From NCBI GenBank assembly GCA_003166055.1, contig PMWR01000051.1, positions 1,935 through 9,930 on the forward strand: DNA of 7,996 nucleotides, in the 5' to 3' direction. The notes beneath the pieces were generated by a model. It saw only the letters and a program-made list of their open reading frames with translations. It was not told the origin of the DNA and ran no database searches. Source of the stretch: Acidobacteriaceae bacterium. Its GTDB lineage: Bacteria; Acidobacteriota; Terriglobia; Terriglobales; Acidobacteriaceae. The translations under genes and the position numbers were made by a program. Below are positions 1 to 7,996 of this stretch, in pieces. Position 1 is the stretch's first letter; every line of letters begins with the position of its first letter.

Positions 1-309
1 CGTGACGGCGCCCGCCTGCGTCTGCGCCTCTTATGTGATGACTGGAATGAACGACCCCCTTCAGTCGTATTTCTTGATTGGGAGGGGAGCCCGCTCTCCA
101 GCATCGATCGCGACCCCTCAGGCGTATTCAACAACTCGCCACATCCGATCACCAGGAAGCCGTTCATTTGCATGAAAGGAGTTCGTGAGTACCACACTCA
201 TTCAAGCCACATCGCGGATTCCTGGGAGACCGTCAAGGGAAGCGATAAATTCACATTGGGAGGAATCCTGACGCAACTTTGGCACGTATGGAGAGGCCTG
301 CACAAATGA
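1..309 (+). CDS. CEHH-type predicted metal-binding protein of a ubiquitin-like conjugation operon (3' part only)
   Basis: Frame 1 is open from the first base to a TGA at 307-309, giving the last 102 residues of a protein whose start lies left of the window. The visible part has an HPIT segment, then a cluster Cys57, Glu63, His65, His67 and His70 (FICMKGVREYHTHSSH), then a hydrophobic Trp-rich tail (LGGILTQLWHVW). This Cys-Glu-His-His arrangement matches my memory of the predicted metal-binding domain (Metal_CEHH) found beside E1, E2 and JAB proteins in bacterial ubiquitin-like systems. The biochemical role of that family is unknown to me. The stop overlaps the next start by ATGA (306-309), so the gene is translationally coupled to the JAB gene. 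The reading frame is certain; the family name rests on motif and context. Confidence 0.72.
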   Translation, partial: RDGARLRLRLLCDDWNERPPSVVFLDWEGSPLSSIDRDPSGVFNNSPHPITRKPFICMKGVREYHTHSSHIADSWETVKGSDKFTLGGILTQLWHVWRGLHK

Positions 310-773
310 ACAACACTCCAGTTCAGATATCGTCTGGCCAAATCCGCGAGACGATCAACCTGTTTCGGAAAGTCGGCCAACGTGAATGTGTCCTGCTTTG
401 GCTCGGTCGTCGCGAACCCGGCGTCCAACGCATTTTTGATGTGTACCGGCCAATGCAAAACAGTGCGATTGATTACTTTGAGATTCCGCGGCAAGGCATG
501 GCGGCGCTCATGGATCGCCTCCGCACAGAAGGGCTTTACGTTGTGTCCCAGGTACACACCCACCCTCACGAAGCATTTCATTCGACCGCCGATGACCGAT
601 GGGCAATCGTGCGGCATGTCGGCGCCCTCTCGATAGTGCTTCCATTCTTTGCCCGGTCAACGACTCCGAAGAACTTTTTGCAACAGGCGGCCGTATATCA
701 GCTTGATGTCGCTAATGTTTGGAATGAAGTGAGTTCGGAACAGATACCGCTTCACCTGGGGATTACGCCATGA
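306..773 (+). CDS. JAMM/JAB-domain isopeptidase (deubiquitinase-like), 155 aa
   Basis: A single-domain JAB/MPN zinc metallopeptidase. The JAMM residues are visible: Glu27 in a strand (ECVLLWLG), then VHTHP with His84 and His86, then the FHSTADD segment carrying the Ser93 and Asp96/Asp97 positions. In ubiquitin-like systems such enzymes remove or mature the ubiquitin-like modifier by cutting after its C-terminal glycine. The protein is short, as bacterial stand-alone JABs usually are, with no signal peptide or membrane segment, so it should be cytosolic. I chose ATG 306 because it overlaps the upstream stop (ATGA); a TTG at 279 would only add nine residues that also overlap the upstream gene. 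Its own stop overlaps the E1 start by ATGA (770-773). This is the second gene of a metal-binding/JAB/E1 operon. Confidence 0.9.
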   Translation: MNNTPVQISSGQIRETINLFRKVGQRECVLLWLGRREPGVQRIFDVYRPMQNSAIDYFEIPRQGMAALMDRLRTEGLYVVSQVHTHPHEAFHSTADDRWAIVRHVGALSIVLPFFARSTTPKNFLQQAAVYQLDVANVWNEVSSEQIPLHLGITP

Positions 774-2155
774 CTCTGACATCAGATCAGGAAAACGCCA
801 AGGCGCTCGCAGCTCTGCTCGGCATCGCAGAGGACGATGCGGCGCAGCGTTTGAAGTTTCGGGTCGCTGTCACCTTTGATCCGGCAGACGAGGCATCCCA
901 CAAGATCGGCACTCATGTGATTCGGTTGCTTAATCGCACGATCGACTATGCCGGAATTTCCGATCAAAGTGTTTTTGCGGTTGAAATTATTCTCGGCCCG
1001 CACGCGCCCGCCACATCAGCGCCCAATAGGGTCTATGCAGGACAGCGCGGGTCTGCATTCGTCATCGACGGAAGCGGCCCTTTGTTGCCGAGTGATCCCT
1101 TAACTCCGCCTCCCCTCCTCGTAGTCGCTGCTTGCTACATTGCCGCAGCCGCTGTTCGGGTTGCGCTCGGACCCAGTTTTCCAATCCAGAATTCAGCACC
1201 GGTTGTACTTCCATGGGGTGAATTGTTTGGACCCCATCTCGAACGATTAGCCCTCCCGCTCGACATCGGCGAAACCTACCTGGCCGGAGCCGGCGCGGTC
1301 GGACACGGATTTATTTACACACTCTGCTGTTTCGACGTAACAGGCACGCTCTATATTGCCGATCCGAAAAAAGTAACCCCTGGCGGACTAAATCGATGCC
1401 TTTTGTTCAATTCCGATGATCTTGGCCACCCGAAGGCGTCCCGACTTTGCGAAGTGGCAAAACCTTCCTTTCCGCAATTGACCCTTGTTCCAGTGGACGC
1501 GACCCTGAACGAGGCCCGCAAATCGCGTGGCACCGACTTCCTTGTTCAGCGCTTGGTTGTTAGCGTTGATAGCCGTCGCGCGCGGCGATCTCTTCAATCA
1601 GAACTGCCAGGCGCCGTGTTCGATGCGTCTACGACCGGCGTCAGCGAAGTTGTCCTCCACTTCAATCGTCAGCCCACGGAGTTGGCATGTCTAAGCTGCG
1701 TTTACCCAGAAAGCGAGCGAGAGCGCAAGCATGAAGAGAATGTGGCCGAAGCCTTGGGATTGACCGTGCAGGAAGTGCGAAAGGGATTCATCGATTCAGC
1801 GATTGCCGCCAAGATTTGCGCTAGATACCCCGATCTTCGAACCGCCGATTTGATTGGCCGCGCGTTCGACACGGTCTACAAGGAACTCTGTGGGATTGGA
1901 AAACTCAAAAGCGTCGGAGGTCAGCAGGTCCTTGCACCCTTCTCGTTCGTTTCTGTCCTGGCGGGAGCATATCTCGCCATCGAGTTTGCGCTCCGGCTCA
2001 GTGACGCTAAGGACACTCGCTTCAATTATTGGAGGGTGAGCCCGTGGCACAGCCCAGTTCCTGCCCTGCGTCAGACGCGGCCCAGAGATTCTCAATGCGA
2101 ATTCTGCGGCATTCCCCTTTTGCGTCGGGTCCTGCGGCAATTATGGGGCTCGTAG
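770..2155 (+). CDS. E1-like ThiF/UBA-family adenylating enzyme, 461 aa
   Basis: The C-terminal two thirds is a ThiF/MoeB/E1 adenylation domain. It shows the nucleotide loop GAGAVG (173-178), an Asp at 198, the Asn208-Arg209 pair, Lys222 in a GHPKA segment, and Asp267 in VVSVD. Two CxxC pairs (Cys307/Cys310 and Cys443/Cys446) look like the structural zinc site of the family. Cys374 in the segment KELCGIG is a candidate for the thioester cysteine, by inference only. The first 165 residues or so form a separate domain that I do not recognise. The expected role is to adenylate the C-terminus of a ubiquitin-like protein using ATP and pass it to an E2. The gene is coupled to the JAB gene by ATGA and is the last gene of its operon, facing a convergent neighbour. 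It contains no fused E2 domain, so a separate E2 is expected upstream. Confidence 0.9.
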   Translation: MTLTSDQENAKALAALLGIAEDDAAQRLKFRVAVTFDPADEASHKIGTHVIRLLNRTIDYAGISDQSVFAVEIILGPHAPATSAPNRVYAGQRGSAFVIDGSGPLLPSDPLTPPPLLVVAACYIAAAAVRVALGPSFPIQNSAPVVLPWGELFGPHLERLALPLDIGETYLAGAGAVGHGFIYTLCCFDVTGTLYIADPKKVTPGGLNRCLLFNSDDLGHPKASRLCEVAKPSFPQLTLVPVDATLNEARKSRGTDFLVQRLVVSVDSRRARRSLQSELPGAVFDASTTGVSEVVLHFNRQPTELACLSCVYPESERERKHEENVAEALGLTVQEVRKGFIDSAIAAKICARYPDLRTADLIGRAFDTVYKELCGIGKLKSVGGQQVLAPFSFVSVLAGAYLAIEFALRLSDAKDTRFNYWRVSPWHSPVPALRQTRPRDSQCEFCGIPLLRRVLRQLWGS

Positions 2156-2216: not shown

Positions 2217-2828
2217 CTATGGCAAGAACACTTCATCACCATGGGCAACGTTACCCTCCACGGGCTCGAATGCCATGTCAAAACGGCTACCCATATCTTC
2301 CTCTCTAGCAGGCTCGCTCAATGTGTAAAAAGCAATTTGAGCGATCCGCAACCCTGGATAGAGTACAAGAGGAATCTGTCCGAGATTTGCAAGTTCGAGA
2401 GTAACAATGCCCTTGTAACCGGGATGAATTAGACTTGCTGTCGCAATGCTCAACCCCTCCCGAGCCCAGGACGACCGAGCCGTGACAATCCCTTGTAGAT
2501 CGGCCGGCAGTTTTATCCATTCAAGCGTAGGTACAAGTGCCAGCATCCCCGGATGGAGAAGGAACTTCTGGCCGAATGGTGCTTCAAATCTTTCATGCTT
2601 CTGCCTCCGGGCTTGATGAAAAGCATGATCACCCGCGGTTTCATCGGAATGCGCAAACCGTCCAGGGTCAACATCAGACAGCCCGCGTGCGCGTACCATC
2701 AGGAATACGTTTCCCAGTCTCAGGTCTATCGACGACGCGCCAATCTGCTTCGCGGAAATTATCGGCGAAACGACCAAATGCCCTTTGGCAATACTCTCCA
2801 GAATCGTCTTTTTGACGAGCGCGCTCAC
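2217..2828 (-). CDS. dcd: dCTP deaminase / dUTPase-fold protein, 203 aa
   Basis: The trimeric dUTPase/Dcd fold is clear. Landmarks in order are GASSIDLRLG (30-39), a core segment ending in HPGML (92-96), the signature ARSSWAREGL (117-126), TASLIHPGYKG (130-140), VTLELAN with Glu145, and LYPGLRIAQIAF (156-167). By alignment from memory with E. coli Dcd, the Arg/Ser pair, Arg123 and the catalytic Glu145 are kept, so dCTP deamination to dUTP (or dUTP hydrolysis) is plausible. The usual IDPG motif reads IHPG here, and the usual C-terminal Tyr/Gln lid is replaced by a RFDMAFEPVEG tail. It starts with GTG at 2828, overlapping the protease stop as GTGA, and is the last gene of the operon. Housekeeping Dcd is not normally in such an operon. 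dCTP deaminases that deplete dCTP during phage infection are known, so a defence role is the favoured inference. Confidence 0.85.
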   Translation of the reverse strand: MSALVKKTILESIAKGHLVVSPIISAKQIGASSIDLRLGNVFLMVRARGLSDVDPGRFAHSDETAGDHAFHQARRQKHERFEAPFGQKFLLHPGMLALVPTLEWIKLPADLQGIVTARSSWAREGLSIATASLIHPGYKGIVTLELANLGQIPLVLYPGLRIAQIAFYTLSEPAREEDMGSRFDMAFEPVEGNVAHGDEVFLP

Positions 2829-4171
2829 GACGTCTGCCCTTTCTTTGTTGAATTGTACAAATCAATCGCACGTTGTTGTCGCAAACCCAGCTCGCAAAGT
2901 CTGTTCAGTTGATCGAAGGTTAAGCCTTGCTTAACTGAACCGGACGGCGTGGTGAGCTTTTCTGCGACAAGCCACCCGGCGAACAAGATATGGCGGAAAT
3001 CAACGCCGCGATTAACGGGACTCGCTGCTCCGCTGAGATCGGACCCACACGGCGGAATATGGTTCGTCAACATACCCACTAATGATGAGAGCGTTGACTC
3101 ATCGGGCATATTAAAACATGAAGTGCCGGCTGCGCTCAGAAATGTTCTTAGCGCCTCCACGGCAGCCGCGACTTGGTCCTGAGTGAAGACATCTTCCCAC
3201 CTGCCTGGCGCGGTTGTCCCTGAATAGCTATTCATGAATGCCACAACATCAGCGCGCAAACCGGGCTCATGGAGACTTGCCGGAAGTTCGTCCCACTTCA
3301 GATGCTTACACGCACGCCACAACACGGCCTTCCTACATATGTATGGCGGATGGTACGGCCCCCAACGATGGCCTGTTGGGTCGAGCGCCAGCAGCAGAGT
3401 TTGGTGGGCAGCCAGAAAGCTTCCACCAAAAGTCACGAGACCAAAAAGATCGCACATGAACTCCTGAAACCAAGAGTTCAATTTGTTTCCGTCAATCTGG
3501 GTGCTGTCAGGGTCTTGATTCCGCAGATCTACAATCGGACCCGGCGCGCCAGGATCATTTCCTAGCCACGCCGTTGCTTGTGATGTGCTATTGAGGGGTC
3601 CCGCGGCCCTCAGGGGCTTAAGAACCTTATCCATCAAGTCAGCTTTGTGTTTTGGAATTGTCCACGCCGCGTGGCCGATTTCGTGCCCAAATATGGCGTG
3701 AAGAAGCACATGATGCCGAAGGGTGCGAGGAAAAACGATTGTGAAAATTCGCCGCCCGATATTCAGTTGCGACAGATCGTTCTCGAGGTTGATCTGGTAG
3801 GAGTCCAGCCCACCCTCAGCGTAAACGCGAATAATCGGCTCGCCTTCGTTCTGGGCCAGATTTTCCTTGCACAGCGGTGTAGCCAAGCTCTGCAAATACT
3901 CTGTAAATGGCCAAGGAAATTCGCCGGCATGCGACCGCTCCATATGGTGAACGATCGTTGAGAGAAGCGAAAGCTCGCCGGCAAAGGTCGCCAGAGCGGA
4001 AACGTCGTCGGAATCAGTGGGCTTAAGCAGATACTCTAGAAACGCCAGCCGTTCACAAAACTCGTTGTAGAACTCCGCGCTGCTGCCGGCCGAGTAGTCG
4101 TGCCGCAGCACGTCCCGCAAAGTCGCGCGAACATTTTCGCACTCTTGAAGCAGAAACTCCTTGGAGTTCAT
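2825..4171 (-). CDS. HEIGH-motif zinc metalloprotease-like protein, 448 aa
   Basis: The central part carries a gluzincin signature. HEIGH at 163-167 supplies two zinc-binding histidines and the catalytic Glu164. A second helix EFMCD (237-241) supplies the likely third ligand Glu237. Downstream lies an HPPYICR segment (274-280) like the His-Pro...Arg motif that follows the active site in M48-type peptidases. The first 130 residues and the last 150 are mostly helical and not recognised. There is no signal peptide or clear membrane segment, unlike classical M48 proteases, so a soluble cytosolic enzyme is inferred. Its ATG overlaps the stop of the 154-aa gene (ATGA, 4168-4171) and its stop overlaps the deaminase start (GTGA). 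Possible roles are cleavage of a repressor, antitoxin or partner protein, as ImmA/IrrE-type proteases do; the substrate is unknown. Confidence 0.75.
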   Translation of the reverse strand: MNSKEFLLQECENVRATLRDVLRHDYSAGSSAEFYNEFCERLAFLEYLLKPTDSDDVSALATFAGELSLLSTIVHHMERSHAGEFPWPFTEYLQSLATPLCKENLAQNEGEPIIRVYAEGGLDSYQINLENDLSQLNIGRRIFTIVFPRTLRHHVLLHAIFGHEIGHAAWTIPKHKADLMDKVLKPLRAAGPLNSTSQATAWLGNDPGAPGPIVDLRNQDPDSTQIDGNKLNSWFQEFMCDLFGLVTFGGSFLAAHQTLLLALDPTGHRWGPYHPPYICRKAVLWRACKHLKWDELPASLHEPGLRADVVAFMNSYSGTTAPGRWEDVFTQDQVAAAVEALRTFLSAAGTSCFNMPDESTLSSLVGMLTNHIPPCGSDLSGAASPVNRGVDFRHILFAGWLVAEKLTTPSGSVKQGLTFDQLNRLCELGLRQQRAIDLYNSTKKGQTS

Positions 4172-4632
4172 GTGTGGCGCTCTTTCAGAGCCTCACACAA
4201 AGCTACAAAAAACGAACGGGCCTTCACGAGCTCTTCTGTAGCCCTTGCATCGTCCGGCGGCGCGGACGCCGCGAGTTGTGCTAGCACCGTTTTCAAGGTC
4301 TGGAGCAGATCTTCCTTGGAAAGCGCCTGGTAAATTCGCGCATGTGCCGTCTCCAGGGCAGGAATCACATCAAGGGATACCTTCCGGCCTGCATCTCCAT
4401 ACTCCGTTCGCTGCGCGTCATTCCGCGTCTTGAAAACTTCGAGAATACCTGGCGCAACATCATATGTGAACGCATCGTATCGGTAACGTTCAAGCAACCG
4501 AGTCAGGCTCGTAAAAAGAATCTTGCTTTCAGCGCCAGCTTTCGGTTGATCAATGTGTTTCACCGCCTCCTCAGCCAGAATCCGGTATACGGTCCGACTG
4601 TCATCTCGCTTATACATCGAGAGTAGCGTCAT
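4168..4632 (-). CDS. hypothetical helical protein, 154 aa
   Basis: I do not recognise this family. The sequence predicts as almost wholly alpha-helical and charged, with a stretch rich in Ala, Leu, Glu and Lys from about residue 90 to the end (ALSKEDLLQTLKTVLAQLAA and following) that could form a helical bundle or coiled coil. It has one Cys, near the C-terminus, no membrane segment and no catalytic motif I can identify. The start at ATG 4632 is supported by a strong GGAGAG ribosome site about five bases upstream. It overlaps the metalloprotease gene by ATGA, so the two products are probably made together. A partner, adaptor or inhibitor of the protease is an inference from position only. Confidence 0.75.
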   Translation of the reverse strand: MTLLSMYKRDDSRTVYRILAEEAVKHIDQPKAGAESKILFTSLTRLLERYRYDAFTYDVAPGILEVFKTRNDAQRTEYGDAGRKVSLDVIPALETAHARIYQALSKEDLLQTLKTVLAQLAASAPPDDARATEELVKARSFFVALCEALKERHT

Positions 4633-4641
4633 TTTCTCTCC

Positions 4642-4863
4642 TCAGCAGGTCAATCGGGATGAGCTGCTTTTTGCTGGTGCGAAGCGCTTGGAAACCCATC
4701 GTACCGCTTTTTCGCGCGTCTGCAAGTTCGACAGAATGGCGGGTTTCCGCCACCTTGCCAACGATGACCCCGGCGCCTCTTTCGTTACAGACACACACAT
4801 GCAGTCAAAACACAGAGAGCGGGACGTTCGGTTGGTCACAATCAGGTGGCTGAACCTTTTCAC
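4642..4863 (-). CDS. small basic Cys-containing ORF, 73 aa
   Basis: A short ORF starting with GTG 4863, which overlaps the stop of the AbiEi-like gene as GTGA (4860-4863). Its TGA at 4642-4644 leads directly into the GGAGAG ribosome site of the next gene, 9 bp before that ATG. Both junctions match the style of the rest of the operon, which is the main support. The N-terminal half (FSHLIV, then LCFDCMC with three cysteines) looks like a small structured protein and may bind a metal. The C-terminal half is rich in Lys, Arg and Ser and looks disordered. I know no firm family. A second frame (4610-4798) is also open across the same bases, so a frameshift at the short GT repeat near 4791-4798 cannot be excluded. 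Confidence 0.5.
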   Translation of the reverse strand: MKRFSHLIVTNRTSRSLCFDCMCVSVTKEAPGSSLARWRKPAILSNLQTREKAVRWVSKRFAPAKSSSSRLTC

Positions 4864-5468
4864 GCCGCCTTCTCCGCAATCTTTTTTGCCACTTCATAAA
4901 TCCATTCCACGCCAAACCGCGTGTCTTTCACGAGCCTGCCCTTCTCCGCTAGAGACAGCCCTGCCCGCAACGTTTTGATCTCGCGCAGCCCCACTCCGCC
5001 TTTGCCAAGGTATCGGAGTGCCTGAACCACGAGCGCGAACTTGCCTTCAGATCCGGCTATCGATTTTGGACGCGCATGTTTGAAATGGATAACGCGGCGT
5101 CCGATTGGCACCTCGTGGTTCGGGCCGTCAGTCAGATAGATGATCTTCGACGGTACTTGGCTGGAAAGACCTAGCAGGTTTGCTGCCCACGCCCCTTCCG
5201 GCACAATCTTCCATCTCTGCCGTCTGGCTATGGCCTGAGCAGCCTCATCAATGTTCGGGCTCAACTTCCCTCCGAGCGCCGAATTGTCCCAGAGCATATC
5301 ATAGAGCCCGCGTTGTATACGGCGGAGCTTTCCACAGCGAGTCAGACTGGCCAGGGTTACGTCAATGGTCGTCCGGCTGGCGATGTCGAGGAAGTCCTTA
5401 GCGGAAAAAGCCTTCCCTTTGCCGAGACGCTCAATCCTCCCAATTATCTGATCTCGCATGGTTTGCAT
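4860..5468 (-). CDS. DUF6088/AbiEi-type antitoxin-like transcriptional regulator, 202 aa
   Basis: The protein begins MQTMRDQIIGRIERLGKG, followed by a winged-helix-like segment (AFSAKDFLDIASR...TLASLTRCGKLRRIQRGLYD, about residues 18-56). It then has the AbiEi-type core LGGKLSP...AAQAIARRQRWKIVPEGAWAANLLGLSSQVPSKIIYLTDGP, typical of DUF6088 proteins, and a helical C-terminus. AbiEi antitoxins bind inverted repeats and repress their own promoter while opposing an AbiEii nucleotidyltransferase toxin. Here no AbiEii follows; instead come the small ORF, a helical protein, the protease and the deaminase. I chose ATG 5468. A TTG 57 bases further upstream falls on the promoter -35 and would add residues the family lacks. 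The stop overlaps the next start by GTGA. It probably serves as the operon's repressor, and may be an antitoxin for one of the downstream products. Confidence 0.82.
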   Translation of the reverse strand: MQTMRDQIIGRIERLGKGKAFSAKDFLDIASRTTIDVTLASLTRCGKLRRIQRGLYDMLWDNSALGGKLSPNIDEAAQAIARRQRWKIVPEGAWAANLLGLSSQVPSKIIYLTDGPNHEVPIGRRVIHFKHARPKSIAGSEGKFALVVQALRYLGKGGVGLREIKTLRAGLSLAEKGRLVKDTRFGVEWIYEVAKKIAEKAA

Positions 5469-5480
5469 GGGCCAACCCGT

Positions 5481-5485
5481 CTCCC
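5481..5485 (-). promoter_or_regulatory. possible ribosome binding site of the AbiEi-like gene
   Basis: The - strand reads GGGAG 12 bases before ATG 5468. The spacing is longer than ideal, but it is the only SD-like element between the inferred transcription start near 5490 and the ATG. It supports 5468 over the TTG at 5525. Confidence 0.4.
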
Positions 5486-5487
5486 GA

Positions 5488-5516
5488 TTAAGAAAAACTA
5501 TGATGCTTTTTCTTAA
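5488..5516. promoter_or_regulatory. perfect 10-bp inverted repeat, predicted operator
   Basis: Left arm TTAAGAAAAA (5488-5497), a 9-base spacer, and right arm TTTTTCTTAA (5507-5516), with no mismatch. It sits 20 to 48 bases upstream of the AbiEi-like start and overlaps the predicted promoter spacer and -10. AbiEi-type antitoxins are known to autorepress through inverted repeats in their own promoters, so this is the expected operator. An A/T-only stem of this kind is a poor transcription terminator. Confidence 0.7.
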
Positions 5517-5525
5517 CCCTGGCAA
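5497..5525 (-). promoter_or_regulatory. predicted sigma70-type promoter of the five-gene operon
   Basis: On the - strand, TTGCCA (5525-5520, five of six matches to the -35 consensus) is followed after 17 bases by CATAGT (5502-5497, four of six matches to the -10). Transcription would start near 5490, leaving a leader of about 20 bases before ATG 5468. The spacer and -10 lie inside the perfect inverted repeat at 5488-5516, so a protein bound there would block RNA polymerase. Confidence 0.55.
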
Positions 5526-5730
5526 GCCGCATTCGGGCCGAAAATGTCCTCGGTTACCTTTGAAGCCACCTGCCCGCCCATGGTGGAAAACACCGCTTAA
5601 ACCCTCCCTCGGCGCGGCCTTTTGCTGCCCTTTGTGCGTCGAATAGCGCTAGAATCGAGACAAGCCCAAAACATCTGGTCGATGACCAGAGGGGTCGGTA
5701 ATGCAAACGCTCAAAGGAAACCGCTACCAT
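5526..5730. other. intergenic region between the DUF2971 gene and the AbiEi-like operon
   Basis: I see no convincing gene on either strand in these 205 bases. The only structure is the hairpin at 5674-5690, listed separately; the operon promoter lies at its left border. Confidence 0.6.
5674..5690 (-). terminator. possible weak terminator or small operator hairpin
   Basis: TCTGGTC (5674-5680), a 3-base loop, and GACCAGA (5684-5690) form a perfect 7-bp stem 40 bases past the DUF2971 stop. On the - strand it is followed by TGTTTTGGG, a short interrupted T-run. This is compatible with a weak intrinsic terminator for the DUF2971 gene. A protein-binding palindrome is equally possible. Confidence 0.35.
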
Positions 5731-6609
5731 TCAAAACAACAGCGTGTCCAAAAGCTCTTCATGCCTGGACAGGAGTCTGGATCGTCTGACAATGTCCTCG
5801 GAGAGCCCAAATCTCTCGCAGATCTTCGTCACGCTGCTCGCAAAAGGTTCTCCAGGATACGGCGAAACATGGATGGCCTTTACCAACGGATTTAGTTCCA
5901 CCGGAATCCTGACCGGAACAGGCTTCCACGATTCCAGATCCAACCCAGCCCTCGCGGTTTCCGGAACATGCACAATAAAGGCGCGTACCTCACGCTCATA
6001 CTCGTACGAAAGTCTCTTCAGCAAAGGGGCGCGATGCCCCTCCACAACGCAGTCCGCCGGTTTGAGCGTCTTGTCGAAGAAGTCCAAATACTTCACTGGG
6101 TAAATGTGGACCCGATATGCCGCATCCCTGGCGCCGATTGACTCCTTCAGCGCGCCGAGGGTCGTCTCGACGGCAATACCCTTACCGCGGTCGCCATAGA
6201 GACGCCACATCGCCTCGGATTCGTGCTTATTGATGTGCCAGCAATTGACGGCGATCGATTTGGCGATGGCGGCGTGATAGCGGCGCGGCGCCGCCTTGAG
6301 ATCGGCGATCTGCCCCTCGACACGCGCTCTCTCCTCACTAGTCAATTCATGCCCGACATCCTTTCGATGCTCTTCGACCAGCTGCCAGGCCAATTCAGCG
6401 TCCTTTACGTGCGACCGAAAAATCGACGCATCGGCCTCAAGAGCAACTGCCGGAAGGTATCCCTCGAACGGATCGCTCTTCGCAAAGGAGGCGAGCGGCG
6501 TGAAATGCAACTCCTGCGTCGCAAGGAGGTCAACAAGCTTATCCAGGGACATATACCGCCAGAGCGGCGTGTCCTCGTCGAGCTTCGTGGAGGAGCTAAG
6601 CCGTGTCAT
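5731..6609 (-). CDS. DUF2971 family protein, 292 aa
   Basis: The family pattern is present: an N-terminal LWRYMSLDKLVDLLATQELHFTPLASFAKSDPFEG segment (about residues 15-50), then AVNCWHINKHESEAMWRLYGDRGKGIAVET in the middle, then a C-terminal half with YEYEREVRAF and IPVELNPLVKAIHVSPYP. DUF2971 proteins are common in bacterial accessory regions; I know of no established reaction. The conserved Cys-Trp, Glu-Ser and Met-Trp-Arg-Leu-Tyr cluster is the likely functional core. I chose ATG 6609, which has GAGGGA four bases upstream. The frame stays open as far as 6732, but that extension is Cys/Arg-rich, runs through a palindrome and is unlike the family. No close upstream gene exists, so it is probably transcribed alone. 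Confidence 0.85.
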   Translation of the reverse strand: MTRLSSSTKLDEDTPLWRYMSLDKLVDLLATQELHFTPLASFAKSDPFEGYLPAVALEADASIFRSHVKDAELAWQLVEEHRKDVGHELTSEERARVEGQIADLKAAPRRYHAAIAKSIAVNCWHINKHESEAMWRLYGDRGKGIAVETTLGALKESIGARDAAYRVHIYPVKYLDFFDKTLKPADCVVEGHRAPLLKRLSYEYEREVRAFIVHVPETARAGLDLESWKPVPVRIPVELNPLVKAIHVSPYPGEPFASSVTKICERFGLSEDIVRRSRLLSRHEELLDTLLF

Positions 6610-6906
6610 TGCATCCCTCGTTTCGGCTGCCTCGCGGCTGGTTTGGGGCTGCCTTCTGCAGCCTAGTGCAACGCATGACAACCCTACAACACGCCCGCGA
6701 CCGCATATTGGGCCTCCGCATAATCTCCGCACATTATGCGGTGATCAAGCACCCGCTTCGCCGCATGCCGGAACGTGCCGGTCTGTGCCTCCGCCGCGCG
6801 CGCATGAGGCGATCCAGGGTCTCGCCTGTCCTCTTTGCGTGACCCGGCCTTGGCGGGGGAGATCCACATCACGCTTGGATAAAGAAGTTGCCTTCGGCGT
6901 TCCCCG
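6610..6906. other. gene-free stretch holding recombination-site-like repeats
   Basis: These 297 bases separate the DUF2971 start from the stop of the nuclease-fold gene. Frames are open here on both strands, but their translations are Arg/Ala-rich, lack motifs and lack ribosome sites, so I call no gene. Contents are a GGCTGC/GCAGCC hairpin (6647-6663), the palindrome at 6716-6741, and an extra CCGCATA half-site at 6701-6707. No clear promoter for the DUF2971 gene is visible. Confidence 0.6.
6701..6741. repeat. CCGCATAAT/ATTATGCGG palindrome with an extra half-site, possible tyrosine-recombinase site
   Basis: CCGCATAAT (6716-6724) and ATTATGCGG (6733-6741) form a perfect 9-bp inverted repeat around an 8-base spacer. 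CTCCGCA occurs as a direct repeat at 6714 and 6725, and a further CCGCATA lies at 6701-6707. The layout (two inverted arms around a short core, plus a neighbouring direct copy) resembles the crossover and arm sites of tyrosine recombinases, and the GCATAA/TTATG arms recall dif-like sites. The centre is longer than the 6 bases of a classic dif site and no recombinase gene is in the window. It may be an element end or a remnant. Confidence 0.45.
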
Positions 6907-7996
6907 TTACCCATTGGCTTCGAGGTTCACCCCGACCGACGGCTCTCCATCGAAGAACTGCGGGATCCTGCCGTAGACGTTAGCGGCCTGATGAATAGCC
7001 ATAAGGGCTGCGGGCCATGCCACAGGTTTGACCGGAAGATCCGTCAGTATGCTGAGAAGTTGAGGAGAGGGGGCAGCTTCCTCCCCTGCCGAGTAGTGCT
7101 CGGGATGATTTGTAACGACGAGAAGATTGATGGGGTCCTTTCCCAAATGCCGCCTCCGCATCCGATTCAAAGTGCCGTGGATTAACGGGTGAGGTGGGAT
7201 ATGCATGTCCAGAAGCCTGCTCGCGGTCATCCACGGAAGATTAAGGTCGAAGAAGACGGCCAGCGGATACGCTGTGTTCTTTCTGATCGCATCGTTGAGG
7301 AGGTGCCCTACATTTAGATTGTGTTCTCCTTCTGCTTGCCGTGCTCCCGGAAAGCCGAGCACGCCAGGACGGTGCTTGCTTTTCGCTTCAACCGAAACTC
7401 TTTGGCCGGAGGCTTTGTGAGTGGCAGTGAACTCCGCGTGGCGATTTAAGCCATCCGTCTCGTCTTCATGTTCGATAGAAAAGCCTGCCCGGAGGCAGGT
7501 AGCCTCTGCGAAAAGCTCATGCCTTGCGCCTTGGAATTGATCGCAATTCTTCAATCGCTCAATCAGTCGTGCGTCAAGGCGTCCGTTATCCTGTACCGTA
7601 AACAGGTCGTAAGCGAAGGTGATGTAAGCCATCATCGGACCTGTCATTGTCGCTTTATATACTCCTTGAGCGTCGTGAGGTTGCGCATTCATGTAGGACA
7701 TCGCCCTGTATCTTGCTTCAAAGGCCGGATGCCGAGTGCCACGAGGTTTTGCAACCTCAGCATCAAACCATTCTTTCCCAAAAGTGTTCGTGACAAAGGT
7801 GAGCAGAATATCAGTAAAGAACTGCGCCTTCTCCTTTGGCTGATACAACACCTTATTTCCCGCAACGACAAACTTGTACCCGAAGTAATCGGCAGAAATC
7901 GGTGGACGAACCTGACCAAATTGGTGAGTAAAGGCGGGATTCGCCCTCGAATTAATCGCTTCGGCCTGCAGGCTCTTCAGTTCTGGCGTGATCTCA
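6907..7996 (-). CDS. PD-(D/E)XK nuclease-fold protein of unknown role (5' part outside the window)
   Basis: The frame runs from the TAA at 6907-6909 to the right edge without a stop, giving 362 or more residues. A GTG at 7851 is not the true start: the 48 residues upstream of it (including HQFGQVRPPISADYFGYKFVVAGNK) read as normal protein and have no stop. About 150 residues into the visible part lies FQGARHELFAEATCLRAGFSIEHEDE...RHAEFTATHKASGQRVSVEAKSK. This has a helix Glu, an acidic residue in a strand (HAEF), and ExK in the next strand (VEAKSK), the order seen in PD-(D/E)XK nucleases. The C-terminal part (PLAVFFDLNLPW and NLLVVTNHPEHY) continues an alpha/beta fold. A DNA or RNA nuclease role in defence is inferred. 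I do not recognise the specific family, and the N-terminal part is missing. Confidence 0.75.
   Translation of the reverse strand, partial: EITPELKSLQAEAINSRANPAFTHQFGQVRPPISADYFGYKFVVAGNKVLYQPKEKAQFFTDILLTFVTNTFGKEWFDAEVAKPRGTRHPAFEARYRAMSYMNAQPHDAQGVYKATMTGPMMAYITFAYDLFTVQDNGRLDARLIERLKNCDQFQGARHELFAEATCLRAGFSIEHEDETDGLNRHAEFTATHKASGQRVSVEAKSKHRPGVLGFPGARQAEGEHNLNVGHLLNDAIRKNTAYPLAVFFDLNLPWMTASRLLDMHIPPHPLIHGTLNRMRRRHLGKDPINLLVVTNHPEHYSAGEEAAPSPQLLSILTDLPVKPVAWPAALMAIHQAANVYGRIPQFFDGEPSVGVNLEANG

Follow-up and report, generated by a model that had tools for sequence, protein, structure and literature searches.

A 7,996-nucleotide (nt) stretch of contig PMWR01000051.1 (assembly GCA_003166055.1) from an Acidobacteriaceae bacterium, hereafter the window, carries three adjacent genes that form a real, conserved, mobile gene set. 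They encode a small helical protein, a gluzincin-like metalloprotease, and Dcd, a deoxycytidine triphosphate (dCTP) deaminase of the dUTPase fold. This triad recurs in distantly related bacteria, where mobile DNA carries it; a sister form is tied to Argonaute instead, and ubiquitin-like genes are frequent neighbors. Therefore, the triad is probably an unrecognized anti-phage module. Gene order, gene fusions, conserved active sites, exchange of partners, and mobility can all be seen at the level of sequence and are described below. An earlier sequence-only reading of the window had proposed a five-gene defense cassette that included the triad; neither the sister form with Argonaute nor the neighboring ubiquitin-like operon was part of it.

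Coordinates refer to positions within the window unless a locus is named, and nine window proteins were scanned against Pfam, NCBIfam, and PADLOC (E up to 1). The conserved unit consists of the helical, protease, and Dcd genes only, which are joined by 4-nt overlaps (Table 1). These overlaps, ATGA between the helical and protease genes and GTGA between the protease and Dcd genes, had been noted in the sequence-only reading and can be read directly from the DNA.

Table 1. Features of the window and the evidence for each (aa, amino acids; ORF, open reading frame; GC, guanine plus cytosine)
Feature	Position	Strand	Evidence
Small helical protein (154 aa), encoded immediately ahead of the protease	4168..4632	-	59 homologues (protein search); all-helical model
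Gluzincin-like metalloprotease, 448 aa	2825..4171	-	HEIGH 163-167, E237-x3-D241; 115 homologues (protein search)
Dcd, dUTPase-fold dCTP deaminase, 203 aa	2217..2828	-	TIGR02274, PF22769; S/R/E aligned
E1-like ThiF protein (E1-N + ThiF), convergent, 61 bp from Dcd	770..2155	+	PF00899 3.5e-12, PF14463 2.5e-11
JAB-domain (Prok-JAB) protein	306..773	+	PF14464 1.1e-6 (over cut-off), PADLOC BilC 6.2e-15
Metal_CEHH protein, C-terminal part, cut by the window edge	1..309	+	PF14455 3e-11
DUF6088/AbiEi-like regulator, not a conserved module part	4860..5468	-	PF19570, PADLOC AbiEi
Perfect 10-bp inverted repeat, candidate DUF6088 operator	5488..5516	.	0 matches in 200 shuffles
Small ORFs 4642-4863 (from the sequence-only reading) and 4610-4798, unsupported, outside the module	4610..4863	-	Codon-position GC, tblastn

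The sequence-only reading depended on the helical and protease genes keeping company with a Dcd gene across genomes, and this was borne out. A protease-profile scan of one genome per species found at least eight loci, in Acidobacteriota, Pseudomonadota, and Actinomycetota. Among the matches listed, Dcd was directly downstream of the protease in 8/8 loci, and a BLAST-detectable homologue of the helical protein was directly upstream in 7/8, with a 163-aa ORF occupying that place in the eighth. The protease is rare. Counting each survey's own center genome, it was found in 8/396 genomes in the phylum of genome G001 (some of these matches are weak or spurious), in 1/392 genomes in one family, and in 4/349 (three weak) and 2/296 genomes in two further phyla. 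The window-type protease was not found in the viral contigs, phages, and plasmids searched, the L054 protease was not found in the phage records searched, and the L039 protease was not found in the plasmids searched. Plasmid searches yielded triad relatives in Rhizobium phaseoli, Agrobacterium, Shinella, Rhizobium CIAT894, Bradyrhizobium, and Emticicia, and the triad is also on Escherichia coli and Salmonella plasmids of about 90 to 96 kb. The E. coli-type protease has 372 homologues by its own search.

Our catalogue comprises 30 loci. Two pairs in it are near duplicates (L058/L060 and L048/L049), so the rows cannot be treated as independent. Weak protease matches (L021, L022, L023, and L025 to L027) and longer stretches (L034, L036, L037, and L038) were dropped before this count. 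Also outside it are L056, L057, nine near-identical R. phaseoli records, and L094 to L096, which were found last. Some of the dropped loci contain HExxH..ExxxD. L057 is a weak match (identity of 27% across 68% of the query) where the listed ORFs are short. L095 has the triad, whereas L096 lacks Dcd and matches the protease only in part. Two of the dropped longer stretches, L034 and L036, had no seed match to Dcd or Argonaute. L036 has a 1,044-aa open frame at a contig end (3351-6485) with HELGH..ELLCD and no Pfam match, which is possibly a larger protease relative in another architecture. The match in L034 (near 9874-10185) is a distant gluzincin-like protein (HEVAH..EIFAD) in an unrelated gene cluster.

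In all 30 catalogued loci, a small ORF of 95 to 170 aa lies directly upstream of the protease, with a gap of -37 to +76 nt. A distant relative (L017/L030) keeps the order of small ORF, protease, and Dcd. The protease and Dcd are fused in two lineages, as a 709-aa protein in L020/L033 and a 643-aa protein in L035, each with a small ORF.

The window protease matched no family in the three libraries, Peptidase_M78 (PF06114) included. The HEIGH motif reported in the sequence-only reading is present, but the analogy drawn there with ImmA/IrrE (M78) metalloproteases is not backed by any M78 model match; the motif is instead HExxH with a downstream ExxxD. This gluzincin motif was found in 30/30 proteases, and H163, E164, H167, E237, D241, G249, P275, and R280 are invariant in all 30 rows. 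In a predicted structure (predicted local distance difference test [pLDDT] of 90.2), helices 155-170 and 228-248 bear the motifs. The sequence motifs and their modeled placement on helices suggest that the protease is gluzincin-like. The small helical protein had only below-cut-off matches in Pfam, NCBIfam, and PADLOC, and its predicted structure is all-helical (pLDDT of 71.7). Foldseek found no match in the PDB at an E value of 1e-3 or better for either model. The small proteins of different groups could not be aligned with each other, and a single sequence family for all of them was rejected, because hhalign across nine groups gave at most 6.2%.

The window Dcd scored 127.7 bits against TIGR02274 (cut-off, 92.8) and 7.1e-34 against PF22769. 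Its S119, R123, and E145 align with S111, R115, and E138 of E. coli Dcd, the catalytic residues of that enzyme. All three were present in 19/19 module Dcds, whereas the glutamate is retained in 23/30 control Dcds, taken from 30 acidobacterial loci. Therefore, the gene is dCTP deaminase-like, as the sequence-only reading had it. However, the window Dcd did not match NF041025 or PADLOC dCTPase at E up to 1, so it is not of that known anti-phage family. We also considered loss of the aspartate at E. coli position 128, together with a shortened loop, as a signature of module Dcds. This was rejected as not module specific, because the control Dcds have E or Q at that position and most have similar deletions.

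The partner of the protease is Dcd at 19 of the 30 loci and Argonaute at the other 11 (17 and 11 without L053 and L054, whose discovery relied on a query that contained Dcd). On the protease tree these labels part by one change, with support of 91/85, whereas shuffled labels average 9.2 changes; the tree has long branches, and its deep order is unsure. The small ORF and protease are near Argonaute in bacteria (L031, L032, and L043 to L047) and in haloarchaea (L041, L042, L048, and L049), and each of the 11 Argonautes has a PADLOC pAgo model match. Those of the haloarchaea are convergent, and the L048 Argonaute is about 3 kb from the protease with other genes between. By Pfam or annotation, 6/7 bacterial loci have a PD-(D/E)XK nuclease gene ahead of Argonaute. 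All seven bacterial Argonaute operons examined encode a protein with a D..(D/E)xK nuclease-type motif; in L047 there is the motif only, with no Pfam match. The L045 nuclease is a strong match to PADLOC Aga_Cas4-like_Nuc, and its Argonaute is of the pAgo_II type. However, the L045 small protein and protease had no convincing PADLOC match (best E value of 0.0052 or weaker among those scanned). Two loci of this branch have further features. The Emticicia plasmid L047 carries both module types, the Argonaute type at 11390-12924 and the Dcd type at 19900-21994. In L031, an HNH_5 protein (7901-8893) directly follows the protease, and an E1/JAB operon of the window type converges on this Argonaute-type locus.

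Carriers of the module are diverse. The triad is in 8/5,426 complete E. coli genomes, and every copy is plasmid-borne. Two E. coli plasmid records were inspected, and both had annotated Ref, Icd-like, ash, baseplate, or Rha neighbors; on the basis of these neighbors we read the E. coli and Salmonella carriers as phage-plasmids. In Methylotenera (L092, genome G004), positions 208-14956 are a Tn7-like element bearing a Multi_ubiq-like gene, an E1 gene, and the triad. TnsA, a Mu-type transposase, a TniB-like AAA protein, and TnsD/TniQ are on one side, and a glmS-like SIS plus glutamine-amidotransferase (GATase_6) protein is on the other. A JAB-like ORF in L092 had no Pfam match. Pieces of a Mg-chelatase (comM-type) gene are beside the module in Hydrogenophaga (L006, 7308-8519) and Variovorax (L040, 7951-8361), which suggests a shared insertion hotspot in these two genera. 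In L095, an IMG/VR contig, the triad (5682-7648) is just past phage minor-tail genes (PhageMin_Tail and Minor_tail_Z), which suggests a phage-borne accessory cassette carried by a prophage. Conjugative plasmids are also among the carriers, L005 has a phage-type integrase, and the Dcd-type module of Emticicia sits between hsdR and hsdS/hsdM. An integrase-like gene in L001 (8576-9574, with a Pfam match) and L002 (2-802) overlaps the start of the helical gene and occupies the place of the gap and DUF6088 gene of the window. On the R. phaseoli plasmid L053 (7820-14504), genes annotated as S8 and trypsin-like peptidases and as an AAA ATPase come after the triad.

The ubiquitin-like operon of the window (Metal_CEHH-JAB-E1, 1-2155) converges on Dcd from outside the interval covered by the sequence-only reading. 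It has both the E1-like ThiF and JAB genes that mark Bub/Bil-type operons, and stretches homologous to its Metal_CEHH end are in L001, L031, and L091. Counting within each fetched stretch, E1 or Multi_ubiq genes are near 14/30 loci, 11 with Dcd and 3 with Argonaute as the partner (window, L001, L002, L004, L006, L007 [L040], L008 [L039], L031, L033, L043, L046, L054, L058, and L060). This neighbor label changes eight times on the protease tree, at least six of the changes being forced by well-supported branches, and it is not clustered beyond chance (61/500 shuffles were as low). Therefore, the link has been gained or lost repeatedly. In 13 genomes (63.9 Mb), 4 of the 7 Multi_ubiq genes over the cut-off are within 4 kb of the module (expected, 0.011), and 3 of the 4 places with a window-type E1 adjoin it (expected, 0.004). 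These expectations presume uniform placement and independent genomes, yet G001/G002 and G006/G007 are related.

Several observations weigh against such a coupling. No ubiquitin-like gene was found in the fetched stretch of 16/30 loci, several of them ended by contig ends, and L091, the remaining place with a window-type E1, combines it with JAB and CEHH genes but not with the module. Furthermore, a related E1 occurs in 138/72,556 plasmid records, and protease relatives were found in 34 plasmid records in total, which leaves at least 104 of these E1-bearing records without a protease relative at that sensitivity. L091 (7615-10562) is a second E1/JAB/CEHH locus of the L001 genome, with a helix-turn-helix (HTH) gene and no triad; its 106-aa ORF, a candidate ubiquitin-like gene, had no Pfam match.

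The remaining parts of the proposed cassette were an AbiEi-type regulator and another small ORF, with all five genes on one strand behind one promoter and an operator-like repeat. Minus-strand ORFs are present at 2217-2828, 2825-4171, 4168-4632, and 4860-5525. The last, 221 aa as drawn, is AbiEi-like as proposed (125.3 bits against PF19570 and 1.1e-59 against PADLOC AbiEi), although no AbiEii toxin was found among the nine window proteins scanned. The fifth ORF (4642-4863, 73 aa) is unsupported. Its codon-position GC of 0.42/0.58/0.65 does not fit that of the other genes (about 0.62/0.43/0.57), and the GTGA start and 9-bp gap reported as junctions belong to this doubtful ORF. A 62-aa ORF in a different frame (4610-4798) agrees with the other genes in codon-position GC (0.62/0.43/0.57). 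However, tblastn (E up to 0.01) against 90 fetched loci found no match to either ORF or to DUF6088, so DUF6088 and the small ORF were rejected as module parts. Furthermore, 227 bp separate DUF6088 from the helical gene, and therefore a single five-gene operon cannot be claimed. The inverted repeat, TTAAGAAAAA-9-TTTTTCTTAA, is a single perfect match and probably serves DUF6088 as a candidate operator. Promoter-like sites were no commoner than chance (3 found versus 1.8 ± 1.3 in shuffles). Because an ORF beginning at 5525 includes both this repeat and the promoter-like hexamers (5525-5497), the ATG at 5468 appears the more likely start of DUF6088. DUF6088 is thus a local neighbor with its own candidate operator. 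Beyond it, a DUF2971 protein (5731-6732) matches the PADLOC candidate defense family PDC-S31 (8.3e-16), which gives the window the look of a defense island. A 314-aa protein (6907-7851) had no Pfam, NCBIfam, or PADLOC match, and a part of it ending in EAKSK looks nuclease-like by eye.

We infer from the sequences a protease switch with Dcd as its effector in phage defense, a proposal to which we give slightly less than an even chance. The small protein would keep the protease inactive or sense infection. Once triggered, the protease would act on its own partner complex and free the Dcd activity, and conversion of dCTP to dUTP would leave phage DNA synthesis starved and uracil-loaded. Where Argonaute replaces Dcd, this switch would serve a guide-directed Argonaute/nuclease effector. 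The neighboring E1/JAB operon would be a separate, recurrently coupled pathway that may tag a component of the module, by analogy with Cap2/Cap3 tagging in the type II cyclic-oligonucleotide-based antiphage signaling system (CBASS). A broader possibility, which we regard as doubtful, is that one old switch of helical protein and gluzincin, common to bacteria and haloarchaea, has been plugged into two unrelated weapons, a dUTPase-fold dCTP deaminase or an Argonaute with a Cas4-like nuclease, and has been repeatedly coupled to ubiquitin-like conjugation. If true, this would be a new class of immune wiring, and the module would be a client or output of Bub-type pathways.

Because the small ORF and protease are invariant and Dcd and Argonaute are exchanged, the roles might be reversed. 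The protease would then be the effector, and Dcd (through nucleotide pools) or Argonaute (through guide-matched DNA) would be a sensor that frees the small protein-protease pair to cut a host or phage protein. Dcd-family proteins bind deoxynucleoside triphosphates allosterically, and a protease-Dcd fusion is equally compatible with Dcd as a sensor or as an effector domain. However, the catalytic serine, arginine, and glutamate kept in every module Dcd would be needless in a pure sensor, and the bacterial Argonaute operons already contain a protein with a nuclease-type motif (in L047, one without a Pfam match). We consider this reversal rather unlikely.

It is less likely still that mobile elements carry the triad for nucleotide metabolism or maintenance and not for defense, in which case Dcd would aid element replication under regulation by the protease and small protein, and ubiquitin-like and defense neighbors would be mere coresidents. 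This would fit carriers that are phage-plasmids, a prophage, and plasmids, as well as plasmid Dcd genes with no annotated protease beside them (L050 to L052) and the finding of ubiquitin-like operon and module each without the other. However, the sister branch has known defense parts (Argonaute and, in L045, the PADLOC Cas4-like nuclease), the Emticicia Dcd cassette is within a restriction-modification locus, and ubiquitin-like neighbors recur above chance. The original proposal, an AbiEi-controlled five-gene operon of the known dCTP-deaminase kind, draws on the same-strand order and the palindrome ahead of DUF6088. We now think it very improbable given the gap before the helical gene, the Dcd outside the NF041025/PADLOC dCTPase family, and the absence of DUF6088 and the small ORF from all 90 other loci. 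Other regulators are found elsewhere, MerR in L040 (by Pfam) and related genes in L004 to L006.

An anti-phage module controlled by its protease would matter in several ways. The analysis names an unmodeled protease family and its small partner within two sorts of probable immune operon, and it also suggests that a dCTP deaminase of the housekeeping type was turned into a proteolytically controlled weapon. The triad is also a concrete neighbor to examine as a target or output of bacterial ubiquitin-like operons. Because there is a copy on E. coli phage-plasmids, laboratory work should be easy.

The sequence-only reading offered no named system for its five-part cassette, and no named system made up of a helical protein, protease, and deaminase was found in PADLOC, NCBIfam, Pfam, or the open-licence papers searched. 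The same sources yielded no gluzincin-like protease with a small helical partner common to Dcd and Argonaute systems. The anti-phage dCTP deaminase (NF041025, PADLOC dCTPase) would share its predicted chemistry, dCTP deamination, with the window Dcd, but the latter is a 203-aa dUTPase-fold TIGR02274 protein that does not match those models. In Rhizobium CIAT894, an annotated anti-phage dCTP deaminase is near the triad as a separate gene, and the fetched piece (108 aa) matches both NF041025 and PADLOC dCTPase. The AbiE toxin-antitoxin system resembles the window in its AbiEi-like DUF6088, but the window lacks AbiEii among the proteins scanned, and DUF6088 is unlinked to the triad elsewhere. The repressor-protease pair CapH+CapP likewise combines a metalloprotease and a small protein beside immune operons. 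However, the window protease does not match Peptidase_M78, and the small partner had no HTH match over the cut-off in the two proteins scanned (the window protein and that of L055, with LacI best at an E value of 0.092). Separate HTH and M78 genes coexist with the module at L039 and L040 and, by annotation, at L054, L058, and L060.

The E1, JAB, and Metal_CEHH genes of the window resemble Bub/Bil operons (PMC13373217). The partners described in the available part of that paper are CapW, CapH+CapP, or CapK+CapS, and the triad is not mentioned there. It gives 219/544 Bub operons as occurring with CapW or CapH+CapP, and it states that protection against phage is yet to be demonstrated for Bub. 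The class II pAgo system with a Cas4-like nuclease (pAgo_II + Aga_Cas4-like_Nuc; PMC6299218) is strongly similar to L045, and the other 10 sister Argonautes match pAgo models. There is no Argonaute among the nine window proteins scanned. The operon of Argonaute and Cas4-like nuclease is already in defense catalogues, but without the protease and small partner, which in L045 have no convincing PADLOC match; the words protease and peptidase do not occur in the available text of PMC6299218. Finally, protease-controlled effectors recurrently tied to immune systems are already known from the nuclease-protease pairs, or canu loci, described in the accessible portion of a 2025 Science paper (PMC12799240). 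These combine trypsin-like or caspase-family proteases with a metallo-β-lactamase (MBL)-type nuclease, and no such domains were found in the nine window proteins scanned. Neither metalloprotease nor deaminase occurs in that portion of the text. The likeness is a protease module recurrently joined to different immune systems, sometimes by fusion. The difference is in the parts, because the module described here has a gluzincin-like protease and a small helical protein, together with Dcd or Argonaute.

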